A DNA stretch of 64,000 nt, from assembly GCA_028283825.1 (NCBI GenBank), contig JAPWJW010000005.1:558001-622000 (forward strand), given 5' to 3'. Shown here in pieces: positions 31,744-62,480 of the stretch. The notes below the pieces were generated by a model. That model had not been told where the DNA came from. It saw only the letters and a list, made by a program, of their open reading frames with translations, and ran no database searches. Source of the stretch: Azospirillaceae bacterium. GTDB lineage: Bacteria; Pseudomonadota; Alphaproteobacteria; Azospirillales; Azospirillaceae. The stretch's first letter is position 1. Each line of letters starts with the position of its first letter. A program made the translations under genes and the position numbers.

Positions 31744-31755
31744 GGGGGCACCCGA

Positions 31756-33392: not shown

Positions 33393-33396
33393 GGCG

Positions 33397-34383: not shown

Positions 34384-34415
34384 GGCGGGGTCTACCTCTT
34401 CTTCCGGGGGCTTGT

Positions 34416-45439: not shown

Positions 45440-45512
45440 TTTGTCTTTTCCCCTAGGAATTTGCGTCAGGGGTGGGGGCTGGCCGGCGCCCCCACCCACC
45501 GCCTACCGCTGA

Positions 45513-47027
45513 TCAGGCCGGCTTGCCGCCTGTGACGAAGGCGCGCACGTCGGCGGCCAGTGCCTTGCGGGCGGGGTCGTTGGTGTAGCTGACGTGGCCG
45601 CCCTCGAACTGCCGCAGGAAGACGCGGTCGGCCGGGTAGTCGCTGCGCGACACCAGATAGCGGGCGGGCCCCACCGTGGTGGTCAGGTCATAGATGCCGG
45701 TGCCGACCAGCAGGCGGAACTTGGGGTTGGCTTGGAAGGCTTTGCTGAGGTCGGCGGGGTAGTCGTAATCCTCGAACGGGCCGCCGCCCATGCTGGCGGT
45801 GACGTTGTAGAGCCAGCCGTCCACGTCGGGCGCGGCCTCACGATAATCCGCGCCCGGCCAGGTGACGCCCAGGTCCTGGGCCAGATGGTCGCGCATGGCG
45901 CTGCCGACGGCGGCGATGGCGGGCGCGAAGGGGTCGTGGGCGCGCTGGCCGGGGGCAGGGGCCGGGCCGACGTAGCGCGCGTCGTAGATGCCCATGATCT
46001 TCCCCTGGTCGCGCAGCAACTCACGCGAGAAGGCCATCTTGCTGATGATCAGGCGGTTGGCCAGGTAATAGTCGGCGCTGATGCCGGTGAAGGCTTGCAG
46101 GCGCAGGGCGATGTGCTGGCGCTCCGCCGGGCTCAGCGCCTGGCCCTTGAACAGCGCCTGCAGGTACTCGGTCGTGCCCCAGGCGTAGGCTTCCTCGATG
46201 AAGGCCGCCATGGACTTGGCCCTGCGGTCGGCCTTGCCGTGATAGGCGGCGATGGCGGCCAGGGCGGTGATGTTCAGGGCGTAGCTGACGATGTTGTTCC
46301 GGCGCTGGCTGGTCTCGATCATGTTGACCGCCTGGCCGAACAGGCAGACGCCGTCCAGCGGCATGACCTTGGACAGGCGGCCGGCCACCAAGGCCGCACG
46401 GATGGTGCCGTAGCTTTCACCCAGCACGAATTTGGGCGAGGCCTCGCGGCCGTTGGCCTTCACCCAGGCGGCGATGAAGTCCGCGACCGACTGGGCGTCG
46501 CCGAAGGCGCTGTAGAAATAGTCACGCTTTCCGCCCGGCTGGATGCGGCTGAAGCCGGTCTCCGCCGGGTCGATGAACACCAGGTCGGCCGCGTCCAGCA
46601 CGCTTTCGGCATTGTCCACCACCGGCTGCGGATCGGGCTGGGGCTGGGCCGGGTCCTGGGCAACGGCGATGCGCTTCGGCCCCAAGCCCACCATGTGCAG
46701 GGTGGCCGACGCCACGCTGGGCCCACCGTTGAACAGGAACAGCACCGGGCGCGTGGCGGTGTCGGCGCCGTCGCGCACATAGGACGTGGTGATGAAACGC
46801 ACGCCCGGCGCGCCCTCGGGGCCGGCCACCACCGTCTCACCCACCGTGGCGGTGTAGGCGACGCTTTCCCCGTTGAAGGTGCCGGTGTGCCGCGTGACGA
46901 AAGGGCCGCCGGAAAGCGGGGCGACGGCGGGGGCCGCCTCCTGCGCCTGCGCGCTGCCGGCGGCCTTCAAGGTCAGGGCGGCGACGGCGGCGCCAAGCAG
47001 GGATTGCCTACGGGTGAGTGACGGCAT
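45513..47027 (-). CDS. exported S10 serine carboxypeptidase (paralogue 1)
   Basis: A 504-aa peptidase S10 with a Tat-like leader (SLTRRQSLLGAAVAALTLKA). The oxyanion region VLFLFNGGPSVAS, DAADLVFIDPAETGFSR, the nucleophile elbow LGESYGT (Ser205), VGTGIYDLTT (Asp) and FEGGHVSY (His) give a full catalytic triad. In the oxyanion motif the usual GGPG is GGPS. S10 enzymes remove C-terminal residues. It heads a leftward pair with the M61-like gene and is divergent from the TonB receptor; a candidate Lrp operator lies 144 bp upstream. Confidence 0.9.
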   Translation of the reverse strand: MPSLTRRQSLLGAAVAALTLKAAGSAQAQEAAPAVAPLSGGPFVTRHTGTFNGESVAYTATVGETVVAGPEGAPGVRFITTSYVRDGADTATRPVLFLFNGGPSVASATLHMVGLGPKRIAVAQDPAQPQPDPQPVVDNAESVLDAADLVFIDPAETGFSRIQPGGKRDYFYSAFGDAQSVADFIAAWVKANGREASPKFVLGESYGTIRAALVAGRLSKVMPLDGVCLFGQAVNMIETSQRRNNIVSYALNITALAAIAAYHGKADRRAKSMAAFIEEAYAWGTTEYLQALFKGQALSPAERQHIALRLQAFTGISADYYLANRLIISKMAFSRELLRDQGKIMGIYDARYVGPAPAPGQRAHDPFAPAIAAVGSAMRDHLAQDLGVTWPGADYREAAPDVDGWLYNVTASMGGGPFEDYDYPADLSKAFQANPKFRLLVGTGIYDLTTTVGPARYLVSRSDYPADRVFLRQFEGGHVSYTNDPARKALAADVRAFVTGGKPA

Positions 47028-47598
47028 GGCTCTTCATCTCTTGGCTGAGGTCGGCATCGGCGCCGGCGGAGTTCGGGATACGCCCGTCCCTGTCCGGTAC
47101 GCTCATGAAACAGCCTAAGAACGGGGCCGCGCATTTAATATGTGAAAATCCGCGTCACGGGCGTTTTGGGGAATAGCTTATGCGCGCCCGCCGTCCGGCC
47201 GGCATTGCCGTTTCACGGGATGGCGGGGCGCCCCCTCTGGCTGGCTATCCCTTCGGTGTAGGCCGGATTAACGGTATTTTAGGGAAATATATCCCTGAAT
47301 CGCCTTGTATGCGGCATGGCTATTGCCGCTTTTGGCGCATCCTGGGTTTTCAGTTTCAAATTGGCCTATCCCAATCGTTGCTTTGATGCGGGCGTCCCGG
47401 CCCATTCGGCAGAAAATTTCTGGCGAGGCCCGCTCGGGAATAAAATTGCCTCTCAGGCCGCGATTGCGGTCACAATTTGGAAAGAAAAGTCTGGGGCCGC
47501 CGGTATCATAAATTATCTTTTTCGCCCATGCCGGATAACAAAATCCCACAAGGATTGGTGAAGGCATGGTGGGAGCTTCAAGAACAGGGGGTAGTAAT
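47028..47598. other. 571-bp divergent control region between S10 peptidase and TonB receptor
   Basis: No gene I can support. It holds a candidate operator (47171-47184), an AT-rich patch with the inverted repeat AGGGA-AATATA-TCCCT near 47280-47295, and a run of moderately AT-rich sequence up to the receptor start, so both divergent promoters must lie here. Short reading frames at 47305-47561 have no domain and no good RBS. Confidence 0.55.
47171..47184. promoter_or_regulatory. candidate Lrp operator, site 1
   Basis: GAATAGCTTATGCG, matching the motif GNATAGCYTATGYG found at four other positions in this island. Located between the divergent S10 peptidase and TonB receptor genes. Confidence 0.55.
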
Positions 47599-49809
47599 AT
47601 GAAGAGCCGTAGTGGTATCCGCGCCCTTTTGGCGACGACTATTCTTACGACTTTCTCTTTCAGCTCACTGGCGGCCTATGCCGCTGACGCCAGCGACAAC
47701 AGCGCCGACGATTTGCAGGAAATCGTTGTTACGGCGCAGAAGAAGTCCGAGCGCCTGATGGACGTGCCGGCCTCCATCGCCGTCGTCAGCGCCGACACGC
47801 TGCTGCAGACCAACAGCACCCAGATGCGGGACTTCTATTCCCAGGTGCCGGGCCTGAACGTCATCTCCAGCGGCAACGGCCGTTCCACCATCGCCATCCG
47901 CGGCATCACCACCGGCGGCGGCAACAACCCGACCGTGGGCTTCACCATCGACGACGTTCCGATCGGCGGCGGCGGCCTGGGTGACTCCGTGGTGCCGGAA
48001 CTGGATCCCTCCAGCATCCAGCAGATCGAAGTGCTGCGCGGCCCGCAGGGCACGCTGTACGGTGCGGCCTCCATGGGCGGCCTGATCCGCTACGTGACCG
48101 CGGCCCCCAACCTGGATGAGACCTTCGGCCAGGTCGCCATCTCCGGCTCCTCCGTTGCCCATGGCGGCGAGGGCGGCGGCGGCCGCGCCTATATCAACGT
48201 GCCCATCGTCGAGGGTGTGCTGGGCCTGCGGGTCAGCGCCTTCGGCCGCATGGACCCGGGCTACATGACCAACGCCAACAGCGGCCAGACGCAGATCAAC
48301 GTCACCCGCACGGAAGGCGGCCGCGCCAGCCTGCTGTGGCAGATCACGCCGGACATCAGCTACCAGGTGTCGGGCACCTACCAGCACTCGCTGGCCCAGG
48401 GTTCGGCCAACGAATACGTCGATATCAACCGCAAGACGCTGTACGGCGACTACACCCAGGCGCCCATTTCCGGCCTGAACAGCGGTTATACCGACATGGG
48501 CATCTATAACGGCAACCTGAAGGCCGACCTCGGGTTCGCCAACCTGGTGGCCGTCACGTCCTACAGCCACACCGTGTTCAACGGCCCGCAGGACGTCAGC
48601 GGCACTTTCGGCCGCTATCTCAGCTACTTCTTCCCGTCCACCGCCATCCCGTCACTGGGTGCGGGCATCTACAACTACTACCAGATGAACAAGCTGAGCC
48701 AGGAAGTCCGCCTGGAATCCCAGCCCGGCGGCAAGCTGGACTGGATGGTCGGCGGCTTCGCCACCAATGAAGACAACCTGAATCGGCAGAACATCTACGT
48801 CGCCACCAAGGCGGACGGCAAGAATGTCGGCTTCCCCGACCTGTACACCGTCTTCGGCCCGTCGCATTATCGTGAATACGCCGGCTTCGGCTCGCTGACC
48901 TACCACTTCGACGACAAGCTGGACTTCACCTTCGGTGGCCGTTGGAGCCGCCAGTTCCAGGAAGATTACAGCAACATCGGCGGTGTGCTGGAAGGCGACA
49001 ACACCATCACCGACCTGCATTCCAACAGCAGCGTCTTCACCTACTCGCTCGGGCCGCAGTATCACATCACCAAGGACATGATGGTCTATGGCCGCGTGTC
49101 GACCGGCTACCGCCCCGGCGGCCCGAACGATGCGCCCGGCGAGGCCGCCTCATATCAGCCCGACACCACCACCAACTACGAAATCGGCTTCAAGGGCGTC
49201 CTGGTCGACCACCTGCTAAGCATCGATGCCTCGATTTACGACATCGAGTGGGATGCCATCCAGTTGCAGGCGGCGTCGCCCACCGGCTTCTCCTACATCC
49301 AGAACGGCGGCACCGCCCGGTCGCGCGGTGGTGAGGTCAACCTGACCGTCACCCCGTCGGAAGGCCTGACGCTGGTCGCCAACCTGGACTACACCGACGC
49401 CACCCTGACCGAAAACGTCCGGACGTCGGGCCTATACGGTAACACCGGCGACCGCCTGCCGTTCTCCGCGCGCTTCACCGGCAGCCTGTCGGCCGACCAG
49501 AAGTTCCACATCACGGAAGGCTTCAACGGCTTCGTCGGGGCCACCGTGTCCTACGTCGGCGACCGTTACAGCGTGTTCAACACCACGGCCACCGGGGCCC
49601 GCTTCTACATGCCGGCCTACACCACGTTCGATGTGCGGACCGGTTTCACCCACGACGATTGGAGCGTCTCGTTCTACGGCAAGAACCTGACGGACAAGAT
49701 CGCCTTCGTCGGCGGGACCCCGCTGGACACCATCACCCGTACCGGGACGTACTCGGGCGGCATCATCCAGCCGCGTACCTTCGGCATCAACATCAGCCGC
49801 GATTTCTAA
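47599..49809 (+). CDS. TonB-dependent outer-membrane receptor
   Basis: A receptor of 736 aa. Signal peptide (ALLATTILTTFSFSSLAAYA), TonB-box-like DLQEIVVTAQKKSER, plug domain with DVPASIAVVSADTL, FYSQVPGLNVIS, STIAIRGITTGGG and VEVLRGPQGTLYGAASMGGLIRY, then a beta-barrel rich in aromatic-ended strands and a terminal Phe (NISRDF). ATG 47599 fits the signal peptide; an upstream ATG at 47566 would add 11 residues. No sigma/anti-sigma pair is adjacent, so control likely rests on the Lrp-type regulators nearby. Substrate is probably a peptide, judging by the neighbours. Confidence 0.95.
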   Translation: MKSRSGIRALLATTILTTFSFSSLAAYAADASDNSADDLQEIVVTAQKKSERLMDVPASIAVVSADTLLQTNSTQMRDFYSQVPGLNVISSGNGRSTIAIRGITTGGGNNPTVGFTIDDVPIGGGGLGDSVVPELDPSSIQQIEVLRGPQGTLYGAASMGGLIRYVTAAPNLDETFGQVAISGSSVAHGGEGGGGRAYINVPIVEGVLGLRVSAFGRMDPGYMTNANSGQTQINVTRTEGGRASLLWQITPDISYQVSGTYQHSLAQGSANEYVDINRKTLYGDYTQAPISGLNSGYTDMGIYNGNLKADLGFANLVAVTSYSHTVFNGPQDVSGTFGRYLSYFFPSTAIPSLGAGIYNYYQMNKLSQEVRLESQPGGKLDWMVGGFATNEDNLNRQNIYVATKADGKNVGFPDLYTVFGPSHYREYAGFGSLTYHFDDKLDFTFGGRWSRQFQEDYSNIGGVLEGDNTITDLHSNSSVFTYSLGPQYHITKDMMVYGRVSTGYRPGGPNDAPGEAASYQPDTTTNYEIGFKGVLVDHLLSIDASIYDIEWDAIQLQAASPTGFSYIQNGGTARSRGGEVNLTVTPSEGLTLVANLDYTDATLTENVRTSGLYGNTGDRLPFSARFTGSLSADQKFHITEGFNGFVGATVSYVGDRYSVFNTTATGARFYMPAYTTFDVRTGFTHDDWSVSFYGKNLTDKIAFVGGTPLDTITRTGTYSGGIIQPRTFGINISRDF

Positions 49810-49863
49810 GCCGGGGCTGTTCAGTACCTGAGGGGGCGGCTGGCAGGTCGCCCCCATCCTACC

Positions 49864-49893
49864 CCAGGCCGGTCCGGCGACGGTCCGGCCTGG
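49864..49893 (+). terminator. hairpin after the TonB receptor gene
   Basis: CCAGGCCGG / CCGGCCTGG, a perfect 9-bp stem with a 12-base loop, 55 bp after the receptor stop. There is no T-tract, so it may be a processing or weak termination site before the M61-like gene. Confidence 0.5.
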
Positions 49894-49952
49894 ATTCACC
49901 CCGGATCCGGCAAAACGGGTCCGGCGGTCCTATGACAGTGGGGGGCAGGGTG

Positions 49953-51677
49953 ATGCGTCGAACCGGGTTCCGTGGCCTGCTGGCAGCCTTGGCGCTGTCG
50001 GCGTCCGCCCTTTCCATGATGTCCGCGGCGCAAGCCGCCGATGCGGCCCCTGAATTGGCCGTGACCCTGAAGCCGGCCGCGGCGGACGCCGCCGGCACCG
50101 TTCCTTATGTCGATGTCACCGTCACCATCCCGGCCGTGAAGGCCGTCGCCGGCGCGCCCTTGCTGCGCATGCCGCTGGTGACCAACAACGTCAAGAGCGT
50201 GGCCGACACGCTGAGCGACCTGACGGCCAGCGACGCCGCCGGCCCCCTCACGCTGGTGTCCACCGACGATGCCGACAAGCCGGTCATGGCCTACCGCCAC
50301 TGGACGGCGGACCGCCCGGTGGATGGCACGGTGACCGTGCGGTACCGGGCGCCCATCACCACCTTGGCGAACCCCCGGGGTGCCGCCCCGCCGCTGGAAT
50401 TGCGCACCGATGGCGGCGCCTTTTCCGGCGCCACCGAAACCTTTCTGATCCTGCCCGAGGCGGCGACGCCCTATCGCCTGGCGCTGCACTGGGACCTGGG
50501 GGCAGGGGCCGCCGGCATCTCCAGCCTGGGCGCCGGCGACGTCACGTCCGCCGACCTGCTGAAGCCGGAGGCGTTGGGCGCCACCTATGTCATGGGCGGC
50601 AACATCCACCGCTATCCCGAGGTGACACCGCGCCAGGGCTTCTTCTCCGCCTGGCAGGGCGACCCGCCGTTCGACGGCCGGGCCCTGATGCAGTGGACGG
50701 AAAGCCTGTACCACCATTACCTGGGCTATTTCAAAACGGCGGGCGCCCCCCCCTATGGCGTGTTCCTGCGGCCCAACCTGGTGAACGCCGGTGGTGGCGT
50801 GGAACTGAACGGGTCCTTCATCGGCACCTACGACCAGAAGACCAGGGTCGAGGACTTCAAGTTCACCCTGGCGCACGAGATGGTGCACACCTTCATCCAG
50901 TCACTGGATGCGCCGGCCGGGCTGGCGGGGTCGTGGTTCACCGAAGGCATCGCGGTCTATTATCAGAACCGCTTGCCGCTGCGCGCCGGCCAGATCACCA
51001 ATGACGAATTCCTGCGCGACCTCAACACCACCGTCGCCCGCTATTACACCAACATCCTGAACACCGCGCCTAACAGCGCCATCCCTGAGCGGTTCTGGGC
51101 CGACACCCGCATCCGCGTGCTGCCCTATGACCGTGGGGCGATCTACTTCGCCCTGGTGGATGGGGAGGTGCGCAAGGCCAGCCACGGCCGGCGGTCGCTG
51201 GACGATCTGATCCTGGCCATGCTGGACCGGCGTCACCAGGGCAAGCCGATGGACCAGGCCGCCTGGGTCGAGACCATCACCAGGGAACTGGGGGAACGCG
51301 GTGGCCAGGAATTCCAGGCCATGCTGGACGGCGCCTTGATCGTGCTGGACGACGACGCCTTCGGTTCCTGTTTCACCCGCACGACCGTGCCCCTGCGCCG
51401 CTATCAGCTGGGCTTCGACCCCGAAGTGCTGATCCAGCCCAAGCGCATCATTCACGGCCTGATCCCCGGCTCTGCCGCGGCGGAGGCCGGCGTTCGCGAT
51501 GGCGATGAGATCGTCAAGCCGGTGCCGCAGGATATCCTCCAGGGCGACCAGAAGGCCACCCTGACCCTGCAAATCCGGCGCGACGGCCAGGTCTTCCCCG
51601 TCACCTACCTGCCGCGTGGCGAGACGGTGCCGACATACCAGTGGGCCCTGAAACCAGGCAAGGCCGCATGTAAATAG
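49953..51677 (+). CDS. exported M61-like metallopeptidase with PDZ-type C-terminus (paralogue 2)
   Basis: A 574-aa protein: signal peptide (LLAALALSASALSMMSAAQA), beta-rich domain, zinc site AHEMVHTF with His308, Glu309 and His312, second Glu331 in FTEGIAVYY, RRSLDDLILAMLDRR after it and a PDZ-like end (IPGSAAAEAGVRDGDEIVKP). The layout copies paralogue 1 almost segment by segment. It follows the TonB receptor on the same strand. GGGGGCAGGGTG precedes ATG 49953; 49932 is another in-frame ATG. Confidence 0.85.
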   Translation: MRRTGFRGLLAALALSASALSMMSAAQAADAAPELAVTLKPAAADAAGTVPYVDVTVTIPAVKAVAGAPLLRMPLVTNNVKSVADTLSDLTASDAAGPLTLVSTDDADKPVMAYRHWTADRPVDGTVTVRYRAPITTLANPRGAAPPLELRTDGGAFSGATETFLILPEAATPYRLALHWDLGAGAAGISSLGAGDVTSADLLKPEALGATYVMGGNIHRYPEVTPRQGFFSAWQGDPPFDGRALMQWTESLYHHYLGYFKTAGAPPYGVFLRPNLVNAGGGVELNGSFIGTYDQKTRVEDFKFTLAHEMVHTFIQSLDAPAGLAGSWFTEGIAVYYQNRLPLRAGQITNDEFLRDLNTTVARYYTNILNTAPNSAIPERFWADTRIRVLPYDRGAIYFALVDGEVRKASHGRRSLDDLILAMLDRRHQGKPMDQAAWVETITRELGERGGQEFQAMLDGALIVLDDDAFGSCFTRTTVPLRRYQLGFDPEVLIQPKRIIHGLIPGSAAAEAGVRDGDEIVKPVPQDILQGDQKATLTLQIRRDGQVFPVTYLPRGETVPTYQWALKPGKAACK

Positions 51678-51686
51678 CCTGATAAC

Positions 51687-51735
51687 GCGGATAGCTTATG
51701 CGCCACTTAAATAAAATGCCGCATAAGCTATCCGC
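51687..51735. promoter_or_regulatory. pair of inverted candidate Lrp operators, sites 2 and 3
   Basis: GCGGATAGCTTATGCG and its exact reverse complement CGCATAAGCTATCCGC face each other across 17 bp, centres about 32-33 bp (three helical turns) apart. Two copies of the island motif, they sit between the M61-like gene and the aminotransferase gene. They would also form a 16-bp RNA stem, so termination is an alternative role. Confidence 0.65.
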
Positions 51736-51797
51736 AATCGGCGCCTCGGGCGGTGTATTCGCAAAAAACCACCCGTGCAGTTGTCTAGACTTTAGGC

Positions 51798-53075
51798 ATG
51801 AAACCGGTCGCGGCCCCTCTGTTCCGCGACCTTCGCCCGATAGGGAAGTGCGCCTTGAATTCTGCCGGTAAATCCGTCGGTTCCGTTTCCCCAGCGCCGG
51901 TTGCCGGCGCCACGGACGACTTCTTCGCGGCCGCCAGCTACCCGGACTGGGTGCGGGGCAGCCTGCGGGCCATGGCCGGCCATCCCGACGCGGTGGCGCT
52001 GTACGACAGCACCATCAGCGAGCCCACGGACCTGTTGGCGAAACTGATCGCCGGCACGCTGATCACCCGCGCCGACGCGGATGCCGCCCCGCATATGAGT
52101 TCGCGCTACGTCAGCGTCTTCGCCAACGGCAACCGCCACCTGGTCGACGCCCTGTGCGCCCGCTATGGCGAGACGCCGGATCGGGTGATGAGCACCACCG
52201 GCGTCACCGGCGGCCTGCAATTGATCCTGCGTGCCCTGGTGCGGCCGGGGGAGCGCGTGCTGATCGAGACGCCGGGCTTCAGCCTGTTGCCCAGCCTGGC
52301 GCTGGAGGCCGGGGCGGTGGTGGACGACCTGCCGCGCGCCGCACCCGACTTCGGCGTCGATGCGGCCGAGGTGACCGCCCGGCTGAAGCTGGACACCCGA
52401 CTGGTCATCCTGACCAGCCCGCACAACCCCACCGGCGCGGCCCTGAACCACGCCACCCTGAAGGCGGTGGCGCGGGCCGCATCCGCCGTCGGCGCCCTGG
52501 TGGTGGTGGATGAGGTTTATGGCGACTTCGCCCGGCGGCCGTCGGCCGGCGTGGCGGCGGCGCTGGCCCCCAACATCGTCACCCTCAGCAGCCTGACCAA
52601 GGTGTTCGGCCTGTTCGCGCTGAAGTGTGGATGGATCATGGCTGACCCGGCCGTGCTGGCCCGCATCCGCGCCGGCCAGCCGGAAGGCGACGTAGGCGTT
52701 TCCAAGCTGTCGCACGCCGTGGCCGCCCACGTGATGGAAGATGCCGACAGTTATGACCGGCATTGGCAGACGGTGATGACGGCGACCACGCCGGTCCTGC
52801 GCAGCCATGCCGCCGCCATGCGGGCGGAGGGGCTGATCGACGGCGACGTGCCGCCGGCCGGCTGCCTGTACTTCCCGCGCATCGTCGGGGTGGCCGACAC
52901 CAAGGCGCTGACCCGCCATCTGTGGCATCGCTTCAACCTGCTGGTGGCGCCGGGCGAGTATTTCGGCTTGGCCGGCCATGTGCGCCTGGGTTACGCCGGC
53001 GATGCCGACACGCTGGACCGGGGATTGACCCGCCTGCATGAAGGATTGCGCGCCTGGCGGCGTGCCCAGGGATAA
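51798..53075 (+). CDS. class I/II PLP-dependent aminotransferase
   Basis: A protein of up to 425 aa with the fold-type I landmarks: VSTTGVTGGLQLILRAL (cofactor phosphate cup), TSPHNPTGAAL, VVVDEVYGDFA with the PLP Asp-Tyr, SSLTKVFGLFALKCGW with the Schiff-base Lys, and a late GCLYFPR. It probably acts in the cytoplasm on amino acids released by the peptidases. The start is uncertain: ATG 51798 has no clear RBS and TTG 51855 is another option. It is followed 27 bp later by an S10 peptidase gene. Confidence 0.9.
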   Translation: MKPVAAPLFRDLRPIGKCALNSAGKSVGSVSPAPVAGATDDFFAAASYPDWVRGSLRAMAGHPDAVALYDSTISEPTDLLAKLIAGTLITRADADAAPHMSSRYVSVFANGNRHLVDALCARYGETPDRVMSTTGVTGGLQLILRALVRPGERVLIETPGFSLLPSLALEAGAVVDDLPRAAPDFGVDAAEVTARLKLDTRLVILTSPHNPTGAALNHATLKAVARAASAVGALVVVDEVYGDFARRPSAGVAAALAPNIVTLSSLTKVFGLFALKCGWIMADPAVLARIRAGQPEGDVGVSKLSHAVAAHVMEDADSYDRHWQTVMTATTPVLRSHAAAMRAEGLIDGDVPPAGCLYFPRIVGVADTKALTRHLWHRFNLLVAPGEYFGLAGHVRLGYAGDADTLDRGLTRLHEGLRAWRRAQG

Positions 53076-53102
53076 AGCGAAACTGGCAATGGGGGTGGGG
53101 CG

Positions 53103-54548
53103 ATGAGGGCGAAGGCGATACGGTACGGCATCGGCGCCCTGGCGCTGTCCCTGGTTCTGGGCTGTACCGGTGGGAAAGAGGCGGCGCCAACCCAACAGAT
53201 CACCGTGGCGGGCAGGCCGCTGCGCTATGTCGCCGAACCGGGCACGCTGGATCTGACGGACGCGCAGGGCGTCATCCACGCCCATGTCTTCTATGTGGCC
53301 TATCGCGTGCCCGGGGCCCCCAAGCGCCCCGTCACCTTCCTGTGGAACGGCGGCCCCGGCGCCAACAGCACCCTGCTGCATTTCGAGGCTTTTGGGCCCC
53401 GGCGGCTTGAGGGCGGGGCCTTGGTCGACAACGCCGACACCCTGCTGGCCACCAGCGACCTGGTGTTCGTCGACCCGGTGGGCACGGGCTTCAGCCGCCC
53501 GGCCAAGCCGGAATTCGGGGCCGATTATTACAGCACTCTGGGCGACATCGCCTCCATCGCCGATTTCGTCCAGGGCTGGACGGCGCGTCATGCCGACGCC
53601 GCCACGCCGCTGTACCTGGTGGGCGAAAGTTACGGCGTCTGGCGCGCCGCCGGCGTGGCGGAGGCGCTGGAGAAGCGCGGCCGGCCGGTGGCGGGTGTCG
53701 TGCTGATCTCCGGTGGCATCCCCGTCGGCCCGATCCTGCCCAAGGAGGTCACGACCGCCCTGAAGCTGCCCGGCCGGGCGGCGGCGGCGCAGTTCCATGG
53801 GCGCCTGCCGGCCGACCTGGCGGCACCCAGCCCGCAGGCCGCGGCCGATGCCGCCCTGGCCTGGGCGCGTGCGACCTACATCCCGGCGCTGGCCCATGTG
53901 GGCGGCCTGACGCCGGCGCAGAAGACGGCGACGGCCCAGGACTTGGCCCATCATTTGGGCCTGGATGTATCCCAGGTGGATGCCACCACCCTGACCGTTT
54001 CCAGCCGGCAGTTCCTGAACGGCCTGCTGCCTGGGCGCAAGCTGGACACCTTCGACATGCGCATCAGCACGCCGGTGCCGGCCCCGGCGGAGGCCGAACC
54101 CAACGCCGCGATCATGACGCATTACCTGCGTGACACGCTGGGTTACCACACCGACCTGCCCTATCTGGGGCTGGAGAAGGACAGCGACCCCACCGCCAAG
54201 GAGGTGGGGAACGAATGGAACTACAATTCCGGTGACACCTCACCGGCCGCGTTCGCCGCCGCCATCGTCGCCGCGCGGGCGGGCGAGGGGCCGCCCGGTG
54301 CGGAACCCTGGATCCGCCGCGCCATGGAACATGATCCCAAGCTGCGCGTCTTCGCCGCCGCCGGTCTGTACGACAGCCTGAACAGCTGTTCCGCCAACGA
54401 AATGATCAAGGAAAAGCTGGAGCCTGGTTTATCGGCGCGGCTGTCGGTCAATTGCTATGCCGGTGGCCATATGATGTACCGCGACGCCGCCGCGCGCGTA
54501 CGCCTCAGCGCCGACCTCAGCGGGTTCATCGGCATAAGCCGCCGATGA
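53103..54548 (+). CDS. S10 serine carboxypeptidase, predicted lipoprotein (paralogue 2)
   Basis: A 481-aa S10 peptidase. The leader ends in a lipobox (LSLVLGC, Cys21), so this paralogue is probably membrane-anchored, unlike the other two. FLWNGGPGANST, TSDLVFVDPVGTGFSR, LVGESYGVW (Ser176), FAAAGLYDSLNS (Asp) and YAGGHMMYRD (His) complete the triad. A gene for an aminotransferase lies directly upstream; repeat copy C and the Lrp-1 gene follow in convergent orientation. Confidence 0.9.
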   Translation: MRAKAIRYGIGALALSLVLGCTGGKEAAPTQQITVAGRPLRYVAEPGTLDLTDAQGVIHAHVFYVAYRVPGAPKRPVTFLWNGGPGANSTLLHFEAFGPRRLEGGALVDNADTLLATSDLVFVDPVGTGFSRPAKPEFGADYYSTLGDIASIADFVQGWTARHADAATPLYLVGESYGVWRAAGVAEALEKRGRPVAGVVLISGGIPVGPILPKEVTTALKLPGRAAAAQFHGRLPADLAAPSPQAAADAALAWARATYIPALAHVGGLTPAQKTATAQDLAHHLGLDVSQVDATTLTVSSRQFLNGLLPGRKLDTFDMRISTPVPAPAEAEPNAAIMTHYLRDTLGYHTDLPYLGLEKDSDPTAKEVGNEWNYNSGDTSPAAFAAAIVAARAGEGPPGAEPWIRRAMEHDPKLRVFAAAGLYDSLNSCSANEMIKEKLEPGLSARLSVNCYAGGHMMYRDAAARVRLSADLSGFIGISRR

Positions 54549-54656
54549 ACCACCCCCGGCCGGTGGGGGAACGCTCGCTGCCATCCACATCCGGACCGCC
54601 CTGTCCCGCTGCCCCGTGGGCGGGGCTGGGGGATGGCGGCGTCTTTATTCTTTCCC

Positions 54657-54775
54657 GCCCTCAGGTGCCGGGCGTCAGCAACCGCTGACTTGGCTGATCC
54701 TCGGTTTCCAGTCCGCCTCTGGCTCCCCAGAAACCTCCGGCGGCTGCGGTCGCAGCCTATGGCAGCATGAGCCGA
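54657..54775 (+). repeat. dispersed structured intergenic element, copy C
   Basis: Same layout as copies A and B with different stem sequences: GTCAGC 54674-54679 / GCTGAC 54684-54689; GTTTC / GAAAC; GGCTGC 54742-54747 / GCAGCC 54752-54757 around loop GGTC; then CTATGGCAGCATGAG. The conserved unpaired blocks TTTCCAGTCC and CTAxGGCxGCAYGAG are retained. The last stem is degenerate here. It lies between convergent gene ends. Confidence 0.75.
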
Positions 54776-54793
54776 CGTCTCGCGCCGCTGGTG

Positions 54794-55276
54794 CTACTGG
54801 AATTTCCTCGGTTTCAGCGGAACGGCCGTGGTGTTTTTGGCTTCCGACAGGGTGACGATGGAGCGGATGTCCTGGACGCCGGGCAGCTTCATCAGGCTGT
54901 TGAAGATGAACTCCTGGTACCATTTCACGTCCGGCGCCACGATCTTCAACAGGGCGTCCATCTCCCCGAAAACCGTATAGCATTCAAGGATTTCCGGGAT
55001 GTTCTGAATGCCCCGGAAGAAGGTCTCACGTTCCTCATCCGATAGCCGCGCGATCTTCACCTGGGCGAAGATCTGCATGGGGAAGCCCAGCTTCTCCCGG
55101 TCCACGATGACGACCTGGCCCTTGATGTAGCCCTCGTCATGCAGGCGCTGGATACGGCGCCAGCAGGGCGACTGCGATATGCCGACCTTCTCCGCCAACT
55201 CGGCCGTGGTCAGCGACGCGTCCTTCTGCATCAGCGTCAGGATCTTCATGTCGATGGCGTCCAGTTCCGTCGGCAT
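54794..55276 (-). CDS. Lrp/AsnC-family regulator (paralogue 1)
   Basis: A 160-aa regulator with an N-terminal helix-turn-helix (LDAIDMKILTLMQKDASLT, ELAEKVGISQSPCWRRIQ) and a C-terminal RAM-type ligand domain (PMQIFAQVKIARLSDEE, GEMDALLKIVAPDVKWYQEF). I count 13 substitutions and a one-residue insertion against the adjacent paralogue at 55362-55847, so they are a recent tandem duplication. AGGGGGC precedes the ATG. Confidence 0.93.
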   Translation of the reverse strand: MPTELDAIDMKILTLMQKDASLTTAELAEKVGISQSPCWRRIQRLHDEGYIKGQVVIVDREKLGFPMQIFAQVKIARLSDEERETFFRGIQNIPEILECYTVFGEMDALLKIVAPDVKWYQEFIFNSLMKLPGVQDIRSIVTLSEAKNTTAVPLKPRKFQ

Positions 55277-55361
55277 GCCCTTTAGCGCCCCCTGTTATTG
55301 GATTTTCCGGTCCCAGCACCGGTGCCCGCCTTCCGAAATTATGACATTTCTGCCGGCGCCG

Positions 55362-55847
55362 TCACTGAAACTTGCGCGGCTTCAAGGGGATGGCGGTGGT
55401 GCTTTTCGCTTCGGACAGAGTGATGATGGACCGGACGTCCAGGACGCCGGGCAGCTTCATCAGGCTGTTGAAGATGAATTCCTGGTACCATTTCACGTCC
55501 GGCGCCACGACCTTCAGCAGGGCGTCCATTTCCCCGAAGACGGCATAGCATTCAAGGATTTCCGGGATGTTCTGGATGCCGCGATGGAAGGTCTCGCGCT
55601 CCTCATCCGTCAGCCGGGCCATCTTCACCTGGGCGAAGATCTGCATGGGGAAGCCCAGCTTCTCCCGGTCGACGATGACGACCTGGCCCTTGATGTAGCC
55701 CTCACCCTGCAGGCGCTGGATGCGGCGCCAGCAGGGGGACTGCGATATTCCGACCTTTTCCGCCAGTTCCGCCGTCGTCAATGAGGCGTCCTTCTGCATG
55801 AAGGTCAGAATCTTCATGTCGATGGCGTCGAGTTCCGTTGTCGGCAT
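55362..55847 (-). CDS. Lrp/AsnC-family regulator (paralogue 2)
   Basis: A 161-aa Lrp/AsnC protein with the same recognition helix (ELAEKVGISQSPCWRR) and the same C-terminal KPRKFQ as paralogues 1 and 3. A copy of the island palindrome covers its own start codon region (55843-55858), a natural autoregulatory site. The gene points left toward paralogue 1. Confidence 0.93.
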   Translation of the reverse strand: MPTTELDAIDMKILTFMQKDASLTTAELAEKVGISQSPCWRRIQRLQGEGYIKGQVVIVDREKLGFPMQIFAQVKMARLTDEERETFHRGIQNIPEILECYAVFGEMDALLKVVAPDVKWYQEFIFNSLMKLPGVLDVRSIITLSEAKSTTAIPLKPRKFQ

Positions 55848-55858
55848 AGCCTATGTGG
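55843..55858. promoter_or_regulatory. candidate Lrp operator, site 4, over the start of Lrp paralogue 2
   Basis: GGCATAGCCTATGTGG, a near-perfect 13-bp palindrome (GCATAG-C-CTATGT), spans the start codon of the Lrp-2 gene, so a bound regulator would directly hinder its expression. Confidence 0.55.
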
Positions 55859-55962
55859 TTCCCCATACTGCCCTGCATCACGCATGGGGTCTTTCGCCCC
55901 ATCTGGGGATAAATCTACCTCATTTGGCGGGGATGTCGACAACGGTTCTCCGTCTTCACATT

Positions 55963-57669
55963 TTAAAGATGGCAGGCGCTGTCCGGCGTGCCCGGCACCC
56001 GTTCCCAATGCCAGCTGGTCACCGCCGGCAGGCGCGGGCTGTAGCTGATGGCCAGCGTCTGGTCGCCGCGCTTGACCGACATTTCCTGGCGCTTGGCCGG
56101 ATCCTTGGCCAGGTCCGGCGTGGGGATGCGCGACAGGACGACATCGCCGTTCTTCAGGCCGGCCGCCGCCGCGGGGCTGTCGGCCCGCAGGCCGGCGACC
56201 ACGCCCAGGCTCATGTCGTCGAAGCCCAGATCCAGCGGCTGTTCCGCCTCCGCCACGGGGCGGAAGCAGGGGGCGAAGCTGTTGGCCGCCGGCTGGATCA
56301 GCGTGCCGGCCACCATGTCCTCATACTCCTGCCTGGCGCCGGCGCCCAGTTCGCGCACCACCAGGTCCACCCACGCGTCCAGGCCGACCTTTTCACCCTT
56401 GCGCTGGCGGTCCTGCACCTCCAGCACCAGATCGTCCAGGCTGCGCTTGCCATTCGACTTGGCGCGGATCTCCGCATCCAGGCGGGCGAAGTAGACGAAA
56501 CCCCGGCCGTAGGGCACGCGCTGGGCGCGGGCGTCGCTCCAGAACTTGGCGCCGGCGGCGGTGTTGGTCAGGGCCACGAAGGGATTGGTGTAATAGTTGG
56601 TGGCGTGTTCGTTGATGATGCGCTGGAACTTGGCGAGGTCGATGACGCCGCTGCGCTGGGCCAGCACGACGGAGTAATACTCGGCCGTGCCCTCCGTGTA
56701 CCAGGCGGTGGCGGCATGTTCGTCGCCGTCCAGCCGGGGCCAGTTGTGCGTCATCTCATGCGCCAGCAACATCTGGGTGTCGTTGCCCACCGTGGTGCCG
56801 TCGACGCCGTAGCCGAACATGAAGGACTTGGCCAGCGCCGTGCCACCGCCGGCGGGGTAGGGGTTGGCGCGGATGAAGACGCGGTAGGGCGCGCCGTCAT
56901 CCTTGAAGAAATGCGCCATATAGCCGTACAGGCGCTGGATGCCGCCGGCCAGCTCGTTCACGTCGAACGGCGGCTGGTTCAGCCAGTACAGGCCGAAATT
57001 GCCGCCCTCATTGCTTGCCGGCACGCTCTTGATGGCGCCGGCGGCGTAGAAGGAGAAGGCCAGCATTTCGGCCGGGCCGACGGTGGACTGGTCACCTTCG
57101 CCCAGGCTCCAGACGCCCCGGCTGCCCTGGGGCATATCGGCCAGGTTCCATTTCAGGCTGATGCGATAGGGCTGCTCCCCCGGCGGCAGGGCCAGGAAAT
57201 AGACGCCGGCACCCATCATGCCGCCCTCCTGGCGGCGCAGGTCGAACAGCGGGCCGTTGCGGGTGCTGACGTCCACCGCGCGCGGCGGTGTCGCGTAACG
57301 CACGATGACATCGCCCACCGTCGGGCGATCGACGTTGTAGTCGCGATAATTGCCGGTGGGCGTGGGCTTCTCATCCACGGCGGTCAGTGGCAGCGGCCCC
57401 TTGTCGTCCCGGGCCACCAGGGCGCTGGCGTCGTAACCGGCGGTGGGGGTGGAGACGATGTAGGTGGGCATGCGCAGCAGCGCCTGGCCGGCGGCAACGG
57501 CGGGGGCGGCGAGGTGCAGTTGCACGTCCATGCGGTCGGCGGTGCCGTTGGTCGCGTGCGGCGTCAGCACCAAATCCAGGGCCGGTGGCGGACCATCGGC
57601 CGCACGGGCGCCGAATGCCAGGCCAAGCAGCGTTGTCGTGGCCAGCAGGCCGGCGGTCAGTTTTTTCAT
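55963..57669 (-). CDS. exported M61-like metallopeptidase (paralogue 3)
   Basis: A 568-aa protein and the most typical of the three: signal peptide (LTAGLLATTTLLGLAFGARA), zinc site LLAHEMTHNWPRLDGDEH with His304, Glu305 and His308 followed by Asn-Trp as in true M61 glycyl aminopeptidases, second Glu in YTEGTAEYY, then RSLDDLVLEVQDRQ and a PDZ-like end (RADSPAAAAGLKNGDVVLS). A candidate operator sits about 120 bp upstream. It is transcribed leftwards between Lrp-2 and Lrp-3. Confidence 0.9.
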   Translation of the reverse strand: MKKLTAGLLATTTLLGLAFGARAADGPPPALDLVLTPHATNGTADRMDVQLHLAAPAVAAGQALLRMPTYIVSTPTAGYDASALVARDDKGPLPLTAVDEKPTPTGNYRDYNVDRPTVGDVIVRYATPPRAVDVSTRNGPLFDLRRQEGGMMGAGVYFLALPPGEQPYRISLKWNLADMPQGSRGVWSLGEGDQSTVGPAEMLAFSFYAAGAIKSVPASNEGGNFGLYWLNQPPFDVNELAGGIQRLYGYMAHFFKDDGAPYRVFIRANPYPAGGGTALAKSFMFGYGVDGTTVGNDTQMLLAHEMTHNWPRLDGDEHAATAWYTEGTAEYYSVVLAQRSGVIDLAKFQRIINEHATNYYTNPFVALTNTAAGAKFWSDARAQRVPYGRGFVYFARLDAEIRAKSNGKRSLDDLVLEVQDRQRKGEKVGLDAWVDLVVRELGAGARQEYEDMVAGTLIQPAANSFAPCFRPVAEAEQPLDLGFDDMSLGVVAGLRADSPAAAAGLKNGDVVLSRIPTPDLAKDPAKRQEMSVKRGDQTLAISYSPRLPAVTSWHWERVPGTPDSACHL

Positions 57670-57790
57670 GATCTATCCCATCCCGTTCAGTCGAGCTTTT
57701 GGTCGTGCCGTTGGCGCCCCCGCGCACCATCATCATGACCGGCATGGGCGAAAATTATTTTCCCGTTTCCGCAAGGGATTGCGGCCCGCC

Positions 57791-57806
57791 CGGCATAGCC
57801 TATGCG
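57791..57806. promoter_or_regulatory. candidate Lrp operator, site 5, upstream of M61-like paralogue 3
   Basis: CGGCATAGCCTATGCG contains the perfect 13-bp palindrome GCATAG-C-CTATGC, the best version of the island motif. It lies 122 bp before the metallopeptidase start and just after the stop of the Lrp-3 gene. Confidence 0.65.
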
Positions 57807-57810
57807 CGGA

Positions 57811-58302
57811 TTACTGGAACTTGCGCGGCTTCATCGGGATGGCGGTGGTGTTCTTGGCCTCCGCCAGGGTGACGATGGAGCGGATGTCCTCCACCCCCGG
57901 CAGCTTCATCAGGCTGTTGAAGACGAATTCCTGGTACCACTTCACGTCCGGCGCCACGATCTTCAGCAGGGCGTCCATCTCACCGAACACGGTGTAGCAT
58001 TCCAGCACCTCGGGGATGTTCTGGATGCCCTGGAAGAAGGTGTTGCGCTCCTCCTCCGACAGCCGCGCGATCTTCACCTGGGCGAAGATGTGCATCTGGA
58101 AGCCCAGCTTTTCGCGGTCGACCAGCACCACCTGGCTTTTGATGAAACCCTCATCATGCAGGCGCTGGACGCGGCGCCAGCAGGGCGACTGGGATATGCC
58201 GACCTTTTCCGCCAGTTCCGCCGTCGTCAGCGAACTGTCGCGCTGCATGATGGTCAGGATCTTCATGTCGATGGCGTCCAGTTCCACGGCCGCCGCCTTC
58301 AT
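57811..58302 (-). CDS. Lrp/AsnC-family regulator (paralogue 3)
   Basis: A 163-aa Lrp/AsnC protein, more diverged than paralogues 1 and 2 but with the identical recognition segment ELAEKVGISQSPCWRR and ending KPRKFQ. ATG 58302 overlaps the stop of the ornithine-cyclodeaminase-like gene by four bases, so it is co-transcribed with it. Ligand probably an amino acid. Confidence 0.93.
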   Translation of the reverse strand: MKAAAVELDAIDMKILTIMQRDSSLTTAELAEKVGISQSPCWRRVQRLHDEGFIKSQVVLVDREKLGFQMHIFAQVKIARLSEEERNTFFQGIQNIPEVLECYTVFGEMDALLKIVAPDVKWYQEFVFNSLMKLPGVEDIRSIVTLAEAKNTTAIPMKPRKFQ

Positions 58303-59013
58303 GCTTCCGGATCCAGCAGGGGCCAGGCGCTGGCCAAGTCCTGCACCACGTGGCCCAGCGACTTGTAGAGGGTGACCTGTTCCGGGGACTGTCGCCCGGG
58401 CACGCGGCCGGCCAGCACCTCGCCGATCTCCGCCACCACATGGCTGTCGTCCACCAGGCCGGCGGCCTTGGCGCGCAGGAACTCCGCCCCCTGGCGCAGC
58501 ACGTGCTCGCGGCAATCGGCGATGAAGCGGGACCGCAGCACCAGGTCGTGATCCACCTCCGCCGGGCCGGCGATGCTGGAGCCCACCACGTTGACGTGGG
58601 CGCCGGGGGCGACCCAAGCGCCGTGCAGGATGGGCTCGCGCGCCGCGGTGACGGTGCAGACGATGTCGGCGTCCACCACCGCCTCCTGCGCGCTGGCGGC
58701 CGCGCGCACGGGCAGGCCCAGTTCGGCACCCAGGCGCTGGGCGAAGGCGGCGGCGCGCTCAGGCGACCGGCCCCAGACGGTAATGCGGCTGAGGCGCCGC
58801 ACGCGGGCGATGGCGCGGGCATGGGTGGCCGCCTGTTCGCCATAGCCCAGCAGGGCCAGGGTGGCGGCCTCGGGCCGGGCCAGGGCGTCGGTGGCGACGG
58901 CGCTGGCCGCCGCCGTGCGGATGGCCGTGACCTCCCCGCCATCGACCACGCCCACCGGCCGGCCGCTGTCGCGGTCGAACAGCACGATGACGCCCTGGTG
59001 CGAGGGCAGGCCC
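58299..59013 (-). pseudogene. C-terminal part of the second ornithine-cyclodeaminase-like unit, out of frame
   Basis: Continues the second unit of the upstream gene in another frame: VIVLFDRDSGRPVGVVDGGE, LALLGYGEQAATHARAI (dinucleotide loop), ITVWGRSPERAAAFAQ, VGSSIAGPAEVDHDLV and the ending YKSLGHVVQDLASAW. Removing one A or T at the AAATTT run (59020-59025) joins it to the N-terminal half as FPDNFDKGLPSHQG. It could also be expressed alone from an internal start but would lack its N-terminal lobe. Its stop overlaps the Lrp-3 start. Confidence 0.75.
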
Positions 59014-60240
59014 TTATCGAAATTTGTCGGGGAACACGGCCACCAGCTTGGCGCCGAACGGCCCGTCGTTCAGCGCGCCGGGCATGACACCGAACATATG
59101 GCCGTTGTCCAGCGGCAGGACGGCGCGCGGCAGTTGCTGTGTTTCGCCATTGGACAGCTTCACCATGGCGTCGCGCACGGTGGCAATGCAGGTATCGTAG
59201 TCCAGCTTGGTCGCCACCGCGTGCCCGTCCACCACTGTCAGGCCGGATGGCGCGGTCGGGTGGGGGGCGTGGGCGTGCAGCCAGGCGGCGGCGGCCAGAT
59301 CCTGCACCGCGTGGCCCAGCGATTTGTAGACCGTGACCTGATCGTCGGACTGGCGGCCGGGTGCGGTGCCCGCCAGCACGGCGCCGATCTCGGCGGCGAT
59401 GTGGTCGTCACCGATGGCGCCGGCCGCCTTGGCGCGCAGGAACTCCCCGCCGTGGACCAGCACATGCTCACGATGGTCGACGATGAAACGGCTGCTTGCC
59501 ACCAGGTCGGTGTCGATTTCCGCCTGGCCCGGCCCGCTGGACCCCACGGCGTTGACGTGGGTGCCGGGGGCGATCCAGGTGCCCTTGAGGATGGGGTCGG
59601 CGGCGCCGGTGACGGTGCAGACGATGGCGGCGTTCGCCACCGCTTCGCGTGCCGTCTGCGCCGCCGTGACGGGGATGCCGGTGGCGGCTGCCAACTCTTG
59701 GGCGAAGGCCTGGGCCTTGGCCAGGTCGCGGCCCCACACGGTGATGCGGGTGAGGGGGCGCACCATCCGGATGGCCTGGGCGTGGGCCAGCGCCTGGCGG
59801 CCGATGCCCAGCAGGGCCAGGCTGTCGGCGTCCTTGCGGGCCAGGGCGTCGGTGGCGACGGCGCTGGCGGCGGCGGTGCGGATGGCGGTCACTTCCGCCG
59901 CATCGGCCAGGCAGACCGGCCGGCCGCTGGTGCCGTCGAACAGCACCACCAGGCCCTCGTGCGCCTTGCGGCCGTGGCCGTCATTATAGACGCTGACCAG
60001 CTTGGCGCCGAACGGGCCGCCAAAGGGGGCTGGCGCCTCACCACCGACGAAGGCCGCCGGCATGATGGCGAAGGTGCGCCCCGCGCCGATGCTGATGAAG
60101 CTGCGCAGTTGCTGGCGCACACGGCCGGTCGACAGCGCCACCATGGCATCGCGCACCACGGGGATGGCGTCGCCATAGCCCAGCGCGCCGCGCACCGCGT
60201 CCGCATCGAAGATGACCATGTCGCCAGGCACCGCACCCAT
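59014..60240 (-). CDS. ornithine-cyclodeaminase/mu-crystallin-like protein fused to the N-terminal lobe of a second copy
   Basis: The first about 325 residues are a full member of this family: VIFDADAVRGALGYGDAIPV, RQQLRSFISIG, FGAKLVSVYNDGHG, EVTAIRTAAASAVATDALA, LALLGIGRQALAHAQAI and VYKSLGHAVQDLAAAAW. Without a stop it runs into LTVVDGHAVATKLDYDTCI and VRDAMVKLSNGETQQLPRAVLPL, the N-terminal lobe of a second unit, and ends at TAA 59014-59016 after FPDKFR. Enzymes of this family make proline from ornithine or reduce imines/ketimines with NAD(P)H. The start at 60240 follows TGGGGACATGGGAT; 60219 is an alternative. Confidence 0.8.
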   Translation of the reverse strand: MGAVPGDMVIFDADAVRGALGYGDAIPVVRDAMVALSTGRVRQQLRSFISIGAGRTFAIMPAAFVGGEAPAPFGGPFGAKLVSVYNDGHGRKAHEGLVVLFDGTSGRPVCLADAAEVTAIRTAAASAVATDALARKDADSLALLGIGRQALAHAQAIRMVRPLTRITVWGRDLAKAQAFAQELAAATGIPVTAAQTAREAVANAAIVCTVTGAADPILKGTWIAPGTHVNAVGSSGPGQAEIDTDLVASSRFIVDHREHVLVHGGEFLRAKAAGAIGDDHIAAEIGAVLAGTAPGRQSDDQVTVYKSLGHAVQDLAAAAWLHAHAPHPTAPSGLTVVDGHAVATKLDYDTCIATVRDAMVKLSNGETQQLPRAVLPLDNGHMFGVMPGALNDGPFGAKLVAVFPDKFR

Positions 60241-60603
60241 ATCCCATGTCCCCAAATGGCCCATTGCTTGATGATGGATCTTAAGATCGGGGGCAGGGTT
60301 TTTCTTTGCGAAAAACAACGCGCGAAAGGTCAAAAGCCGGGAAAAATTTCCGCCTATCCGTTTGCGCCGGCGCAAACTATGCGGCAAATGCGTCAAAGCC
60401 GGTGAGATGGACCGCCATATCCCACCCTTCGCAATTTCCATGCGGTCGTTTCCGGGGACGGGGATAAAATTTGCGGGAGCGGTGATGAATGGGCCGAACT
60501 TAGCGAAAAATACCCCCGGGGCTTTCGCTACCATGGCGATCAGTCAGGGAATGCGCTCCAGGGCCGGGCGCCCGTTTTGCCACGATAGCTTTGAGTGACA
60601 GGC
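60241..60603. promoter_or_regulatory. divergent control region with a perfect 16-bp palindrome
   Basis: Between the cyclodeaminase-like gene and the class V PLP gene. TTTGCGCCGGCGCAAA (60361-60376) is a perfect palindrome, flanked by CCTATCCG and CTATGCGG, half-sites reminiscent of the island Lrp motif. An inverted repeat TAGCGAAA (60501-60508) / TTTCGCTA (60523-60530) lies nearer the class V gene. No gene of its own is visible. Confidence 0.55.
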
Positions 60604-61997: not shown

Positions 61998-62480
61998 ATG
62001 CGCACCGCGTTCCTCGCGTTGGCCGGCGCCGTGTTCGCGGCCGCCCCGGCTTGGGCCTTGACCGCCGTTCCGGCAGGGGCGGGTGAGGGCGGCACGCCGG
62101 TGCCGGCGGTGCAGTACTACCGGCCCGACACCACCAAGGTGCCGTACTCGCAGGTCGTGCGGGTCGACAACATCCTCTACGTCTCCGGCCAGTTGGGCGT
62201 GAACCCGGACGGCAAGCCGCTGGACGGCATGGCGGCACAGGCCAAGGCCGCGCTGGACCATGTGGCGGAGGCCCTGGGCCGGGTGGGCAGTGGCATGGAC
62301 GCGGTGTTCAAATGCACCGTCATGCTGACCGACATGGGCCAGTGGGCGGCGTTCAACCAGGTCTATGTCGGCTATTTCAAGCCCGACCGCCTGCCGGCCC
62401 GCAGCGCCATGGCCGTGAGCGGCCTGCCGCTGGGCTCCAGCGTCGAGGTCGAATGCTGGGCCTACGCGCCTACCAAGTAA
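61998..62480 (+). CDS. exported RidA-family enamine/imine deaminase
   Basis: A 160-aa protein with a signal peptide (FLALAGAVFAAAPAWALT) ahead of a full RidA domain: VPYSQVVRVDNILYVSGQLG, HVAEALGRVGSGMDAVFKCTVML, and LPARSAMAVSGLPLGSSVEVECWAYA with the conserved Arg and Glu. RidA proteins hydrolyse 2-aminoacrylate and other enamines/imines made by PLP enzymes. Here both the PLP enzyme upstream and this RidA are predicted outside the cytoplasm, an unusual pairing. Confidence 0.9.
   Translation: MRTAFLALAGAVFAAAPAWALTAVPAGAGEGGTPVPAVQYYRPDTTKVPYSQVVRVDNILYVSGQLGVNPDGKPLDGMAAQAKAALDHVAEALGRVGSGMDAVFKCTVMLTDMGQWAAFNQVYVGYFKPDRLPARSAMAVSGLPLGSSVEVECWAYAPTK

Follow-up and report, generated by a model that had tools for sequence, protein, structure and literature searches.

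Which protein reads the short palindrome that recurs in the peptide island of an Azospirillaceae bacterium, and what would it control there? An earlier note on the 64,000-nucleotide stretch of DNA that was analysed (the window) had proposed that the palindrome links the genes of the island and is the common site of three Lrp paralogues encoded among them. With a probability of about 0.85, we regard the palindrome as the predicted operator of a local, self-regulated Lrp/AsnC regulon that is encoded in the island and serves peptide breakdown.

Within the window, GNATAGCYTATGYG is matched exactly at five places, every one of which lies inside the island (Table 1). Thus, the five copies listed in the earlier note were all recovered, their coordinates had been given correctly to within two bases, and no exact match occurs elsewhere in the window. 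The best site, at positions 57793-57805, is indeed the perfect palindrome GCATAG-C-CTATGC. Each copy is located 5' of an island gene; the description of the sites as lying in or next to gaps has to be amended for the copy at 55844, which covers a start codon and lies in no gap. When up to two mismatches were allowed, 11 matches were found in the window, as compared to a mean of 2.17 in 100 shuffled sequences, none of which reached 11. The earlier note had also proposed a scan of the complete genome as a check. In the 7.16 Mb of sequence the exact copies are not scattered, the only five being those of the island, and with at most one mismatch 12 matches were obtained versus 7 for the reversed control. 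A zero-order estimate at 67.4% GC predicts about 0.3 exact matches per genome, a value that is no independent test because the pattern was written from these very sites. One of the seven one-mismatch matches is an additional island site beyond the end of the window (contig 5:623961, window-equivalent 65961). It reads GCATAGTTTATGCG, is followed by the inverted partner GCATAAACTATTCC 40 bp further on, and precedes an amidohydrolase gene. With five sites in the window and two beyond it, the number of strong island sites is seven or more. In the rest of the genome, the one-mismatch sites L006-L011 are situated inside open frames of at least 355 codons and were not taken as targets; this is a weak test, as L012 and three of the four island sites tested in this way (L002, L004 and L005, the exception being L001) likewise fall within frames of at least 120 codons. 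Scans with loose 13-mers were set aside as uninformative because they did not rise above the controls; with up to three mismatches, for instance, the window showed no enrichment (27 matches versus a mean of 19.5, with 8 of 100 shuffles reaching 27).

Table 1. Predicted operators and genes of the peptide island; positions refer to the window
Feature	Position	Strand	Remark
M61-like gene	43715-45499		named by resemblance, without Pfam match; after the S10 gene 45513-47027
S10 serine carboxypeptidase	45513-47027	-	PF00450; likely target of the 47171 site
Weaker copy CGCATTTAATATGTG	starts 47130		40 bp before the 47171 site
Candidate operator GAATAGCTTATGCG	47171-47184	+	exact match; upstream of the S10 gene 45513-47027
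Weaker element AAGATAATTTATGAT	47505-47519	-	score 11.9; some 80 bp upstream of the TonB receptor gene
TonB-dependent receptor	47599-49809	+	PF00593, PF07715; start chosen by eye
M61 peptidase	49950-51677	+	PF05299; start approximate
Candidate operator GGATAGCTTATGCG, first of inverted pair	51689-51702	+	exact match; before the aminotransferase gene
Candidate operator GGATAGCTTATGCG, second of inverted pair	51720-51733	-	exact match; 32 bp from the first
Class I/II aminotransferase	51798-53075	+	PF00155; likely target of the 51689/51720 pair
S10 gene	53103-54548		PF00450; follows the class I/II aminotransferase
Lrp1, Lrp/AsnC regulator	54794-55276	-	HTH_AsnC-type and AsnC_trans_reg (Pfam)
Lrp2, Lrp/AsnC regulator	55362-55847	-	92% identical to Lrp1; own predicted operator over the start codon
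Candidate operator GCATAGCCTATGTG	55844-55857	+	exact match; covers the Lrp2 start codon (55845-55847)
M61 peptidase	55963-57669	-	PF05299; likely target of the 57793 site
Candidate operator, perfect palindrome GCATAGCCTATGC plus G	57793-57806	+	exact match; after the Lrp3 stop, before the M61 gene
Lrp3, Lrp/AsnC regulator	57811-58302	-	87% identity to Lrp1; follows the OCD frames directly
Two ornithine-cyclodeaminase-family (OCD) frames	58299-58985, 59014-60534	-	PF02423
Class V aminotransferase	60595-61860	+	PF00266
RidA-like protein	about 61998-62480	+	PF01042

Past the end of the window, the island continues with another S10-like gene (the name being based on translation and resemblance), an S9 peptidase gene, the amidohydrolase gene, an S10 gene and an amino-acid permease gene, and a YafY-type gene and a TetR gene stand at its two edges. 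At two places in the island no clear site was found: no sequence in the gap before Lrp1 scores at least 8, which may be transcribed by read-through from Lrp2, and no clear conserved site is present at the divergent promoter between the OCD frames and the class V aminotransferase gene (about 60400-60594).

Several features of the encoded proteins deserve mention. The OCD frames form one continuous open frame in six relatives and are split here by one extra base near 59025, which may be a real change or a sequencing error; their best match, below the cut-off, is a pyrroline-2-carboxylate reductase model. The amidohydrolase (L013:4105-6240) has a below-cut-off match to a Caulobacter-type Xaa-Pro dipeptidase model, and the S9 gene (L013:2008-3915) belongs to the prolyl oligopeptidase family. 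Together, the amidohydrolase, S9 and OCD matches hint at proline-rich peptides as the substrate. The class V aminotransferase, which shows a below-cut-off match to PvdN, and the RidA-like protein both start with signal-like segments as judged by eye, and these segments suggest periplasmic PLP chemistry. Another part of the window (30226-38150), with a monooxygenase-like gene and two sets of genes for ABC transporters of the nitrate/sulfonate type, looks like a locus for sulfonate use when the translations are judged by eye.

The gene order of the island is largely the same in six named relatives, five of them deposited under the name Nitrospirillum and the sixth as Azospirillum sp. B4, and four to seven genomes could be aligned per gap. 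The palindrome in the M61 gap (57793) is conserved in all four aligned genomes, that is, in the own genome and in the three relatives having this M61 gene at this place. The dyad ACATAGGMTATGCC over the Lrp2 start codon is found at the same position in the own genome and in all six relatives, and the dyad pair in front of the amidohydrolase gene, with its spacing of 40 bp, is kept in five of five. In the aminotransferase pair, the inner halves TTATGCG (with a single change in one genome) and CGCATAAGCT are retained in seven of seven genomes; in the six relatives, the outer halves have diverged. The element AAGATAATTTATGAT before the TonB receptor gene is identical in six of seven genomes and shows a single difference in L025, within a stretch where conservation is high throughout. 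In general, the dyads are not the sole conserved blocks in the gaps, and the other blocks are probably promoters.

All three island regulators belong to the Lrp/AsnC family. The N-terminal AsnC-type winged helix-turn-helix models PF13404 and PF13412 are above the cut-off in each of them, and the C-terminal ligand domain AsnC_trans_reg (PF01037) scores 64.9-68.5 bits (cut-off 25). Lrp1, the only paralogue that was scanned with the NCBIfam equivalog models, stayed below both cut-offs, with 117.6 bits for the E. coli-type Lrp model NF008370 (cut-off 233) and 58.6 bits for the AsnC model NF008384 (cut-off 227). The number of paralogues is one or two in relatives, and six other genomes of the genus have two each. 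The next-best homologue in the own genome is a sister AsnC regulator that is 45% identical. The earlier note had based the assignment of one motif to three regulators on their identical recognition segment, SQSPCWRR. The identity is real; the segment is not specific, as it is also present in the sister regulator and in the sister proteins of other genomes. It is plausible that all three paralogues bind the motif.

The occurrence of the motif in other genomes follows this Lrp subfamily. Among 82 genomes of the own family, all seven of the genus, taken to be Nitrospirillum, contain GNATARNYTATGCSG, which is partly so by construction because the pattern had been widened after the sites of the relatives were seen. 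In these seven Nitrospirillum genomes 17 of 19 matches listed are located within 8 kb of an Lrp gene (some palindromes being tallied on both strands), and the remaining two are on another contig of a fragmented assembly. The other 75 genomes yielded 8 genomes with a match versus 14 for the reversed control. The shorter 13-mer RCATARNYTATGC did not exceed its reversed control in whole genomes; five of six Nitrospirillum relatives have one match to it on a contig showing neither Lrp nor an identified island gene, and one of these matches is the perfect palindrome. The count in the Caulobacteraceae is free of the circularity mentioned above. In this family, which is that of the Phenylobacterium locus L030 and was identified by the name of that locus, 49 of 390 genomes carry the Lrp subfamily at E 1e-55 or better (55 places), and GNATARNYTATGCSG was detected in 22 of these 49 as compared to 51 of 341 without it (Fisher 5e-6), the test being made on raw genome counts whatever the genome size and its P-value overstating independence because the loci share descent. 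In the Lrp-carrying genomes, 16 of 29 places with a match are within 20 kb of the Lrp gene, and two are the Lrp start itself. Twelve loci were fetched, of which eleven were picked from 14 genomes for a match near Lrp and one (L154) for comparison. In all eleven the match lies directly before an S10 gene, a position like that of the site at 47171; in L151 and L152 it is between Lrp and S10 and has modest scores of 13.0 and 12.1. Moreover, in four Phenylobacterium loci a 75-76% identical Lrp is surrounded by aminotransferase, class V aminotransferase, M61, S10, OCD and permease genes.

The motif is not evident at every Lrp start. The more distant members L034 (65% identity), L155 and L156 (69-70%) have no clear site there, L091 (62%) has half sites only, as judged by eye, and the starts in L146, L148 and L153 score less than 11, the cut-off used. 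The motif was also sought in a third family of the class (L155-L158), where the neighbourhood is kept and no clear palindrome is present at the Lrp start. As regards this neighbourhood, in L157 and L158 an Lrp with 69-70% identity is encoded beside amidohydrolase, M61 and class V aminotransferase genes, to which S10 and permease genes are added in L158.

Matrices were applied in both directions between the two families. A matrix derived from the start codons of the Caulobacteraceae Lrp genes ranks the seven island sites 1, 3, 4, 6, 9, 12 and 13 in 100 kb. It was built from 23 sequences that represent 11 distinct start-codon sites and from a 15-base stretch chosen for its motif-like look; six of 29 sites (L135, L137-L141), with a misplaced start pick or a poor site, were omitted, and no ATG is present in L142. 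In dinucleotide-matched random sequence the best score averages 13.3 (maximum 20.8), and single scores are thus not decisive. The ninth-best score is 12.8 in the island stretch and averages 7.8 in random sequence, with a maximum of 10.5. Conversely, with the matrix made from the seven island sites, the upstream regions of all 30 Caulobacteraceae Lrp genes that were scored reach at least 9 (4.3% of shuffles do), these genes being 30 of the 55 places and mostly the most similar ones, and 23 of these upstream sites lie over the start codon. Downstream of the same genes 16 of 30 reach this score (3.6% of shuffles). Of 22 other AsnC genes, which are 22 of 25 sister loci after omission of L099, L104 and L111 near contig ends, four reach it upstream and none downstream. 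As a group, the upstream regions of these 22 genes exceed their shuffles as well (median 6.5 versus 2.4), and related dyads may be common in the AsnC family. In view of the genome count against the reversed control, the conservation and the cross-family matrix tests, chance was rejected as the origin of the sites.

The sites also recur at preferred distances. Neighbours were scored for 47 strong sites from 23 sources. For 31 of these sites the best neighbour reaches at least 5, and it is found at 31 bp (13), 40 bp (11), 32 bp (5), 41 bp (1) or 45 bp (1) when each pair is counted from both members. By promoter, the best neighbour is at 31, 32 or 40 bp in 10 of 14 hand-picked cases (with weak partners in L143, L147 and L153), these spacings having been chosen after they were seen and the promoters sharing descent. 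Outside this pattern are L148 and the own Lrp2, M61 and TonB sites, the Lrp2 and M61 sites showing no clear partner dyad in the neighbour scan. In the Caulobacteraceae, 22 of 29 Lrp promoters have a second dyad of the GCATCCGCTATGC kind exactly 31 bp upstream; TTGACA together with the upstream dyad could be taken for a promoter there only tentatively, the spacer to TATGCG being about 20 bp by our reading. It has been described that Lrp sites are two or three turns apart (PMC2995911) and that the usual periods of repeated Lrp/AsnC sites include 30-31 bp (PMC8707732). A distance of 40 bp does not correspond to an integral number of helical turns at 10.5 bp each.

The matrix tests in both directions, the conserved dyads, the co-occurrence with Lrp and the Lrp-like spacing thus support the proposal that the island genes are linked by the palindrome and that the island Lrp proteins use it as their site. 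The shared recognition segment brings the sister AsnC regulator into play as the main reader of the motif, or as a reader jointly with the island paralogues. The sister gene in the own genome (L019, C1:640847) is itself preceded by CGCATAGTCTTTGCG at upstream position -90, which scores 16.8 and is close enough to the island motif that cross-talk is possible. Since the upstream regions of the other AsnC genes exceed their shuffles too, the motif may not be exclusive to the island-type Lrp. However, 21 of the 75 other family genomes have the sister (43-47% identity), yet the motif is no commoner in those 75 than the reversed control, and the strong sites track the island-type Lrp gene. Reading by the sister is quite improbable.

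We consider it very improbable that the palindrome serves another regulator as its operator, either TetR, YafY/WYL or a protein encoded elsewhere, with the Lrp genes merely among its targets. The presence of regulator genes at both edges of the island would favour this, but TetR and YafY were found in none of 24 related loci, many of which do not reach those positions, as against 23 with Lrp, and the edge regulators were set aside as not conserved. Moreover, in both families the matches accompany the Lrp subfamily, and the architecture of the sites fits Lrp proteins. That one site covers a start codon and another follows a stop codon could also point to a hairpin, a terminator or a start-codon feature kept for translation or at the RNA level. 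This is hardly credible, as, from our reading of the sequence, the remaining sites are located at some distance upstream of genes, the dyad permits a short stem only and no T run follows it, and as second copies recur at repeated spacings.

For the island Lrp proteins as readers, we infer binding, oligomeric state, direction of control and ligand as follows. One regulator dimer would read one 13-bp dyad of the GCATAR-N-YTATGC type, and dimers within one oligomer would also touch another dyad, in many cases a weaker one, at a distance of about three turns (31-32 bp) or of 40 bp, thereby bending the DNA. Lrp most likely represses itself, since a predicted operator lies across its own start codon and the Caulobacteraceae partner 31 bp upstream is near a likely promoter. 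The other predicted operators precede S10 and M61 peptidase, aminotransferase and amidohydrolase genes, and a weaker conserved one precedes the TonB receptor gene; at these targets Lrp would probably sense an amino acid from imported peptides and switch their uptake and breakdown. A variant, in which the three 87-92% identical paralogues, having one recognition helix in common, form mixed oligomers on the shared pairs (31-32 and 40 bp), so that two promoter states of one island, repressed and activated, are set by spacing and paralogue mix and not by different DNA sites, is rather unlikely.

Two other members of the family, FL11 of Pyrococcus and Lrp of E. coli, are global regulators, and the latter recognises a degenerate A+T-rich site. 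The structure of E. coli Lrp (PDB 2gqq) matches the profile of the three paralogues at E 5.4e-29, in line with membership of the same family; the equivalog score of Lrp1 (117.6 versus 233 bits) sets the two apart. The archaeal Lrp-like protein FL11 resembles the proposed system in that its dimer binds a 13-bp palindrome, as seen in what was described in 2010 as the only known co-crystal of the family (PMC2995911), and differs in its consensus, ATAAA-ATT-TTTAT (PMC8707732), as compared to GCATAR-N-YTATGC here. The island can also be compared to the local bacterial regulators AsnC, which represses itself, BkdR, KynR, PutR and PA2577, whose genes likewise stand beside their targets and which use repeated sites (PMC8707732). 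However, each of these controls a neighbouring gene or operon (PMC8707732), whereas in the island the near-identical paralogues, up to three in number, are interspersed with several units that encode peptidases, a receptor and amino-acid enzymes. Our literature search, the coverage of which excluded most subscription journals, found no earlier description of the regulon or its site. An operator read by the island's own regulators, the most likely case, would be a switch of an ordinary bacterial type, for which this analysis puts forward the site and the target genes.

To predict the sites of Lrp-like proteins from sequence has been described as generally difficult (PMC2995911), and a near-exact motif whose exact copies are confined to one island is therefore a useful handle. 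The analysis provides a proposed DNA site, a list of targets and a role for the Lrp/AsnC subfamily of Nitrospirillum and the Caulobacteraceae. Furthermore, the perfect 13-bp dyad, the short probes that it allows and the at most three near-identical regulators make up a compact system for studying how Lrp oligomers read paired sites. For the bacteria themselves, the motif predicts which peptidases and receptors would belong to one pathway of peptide use.
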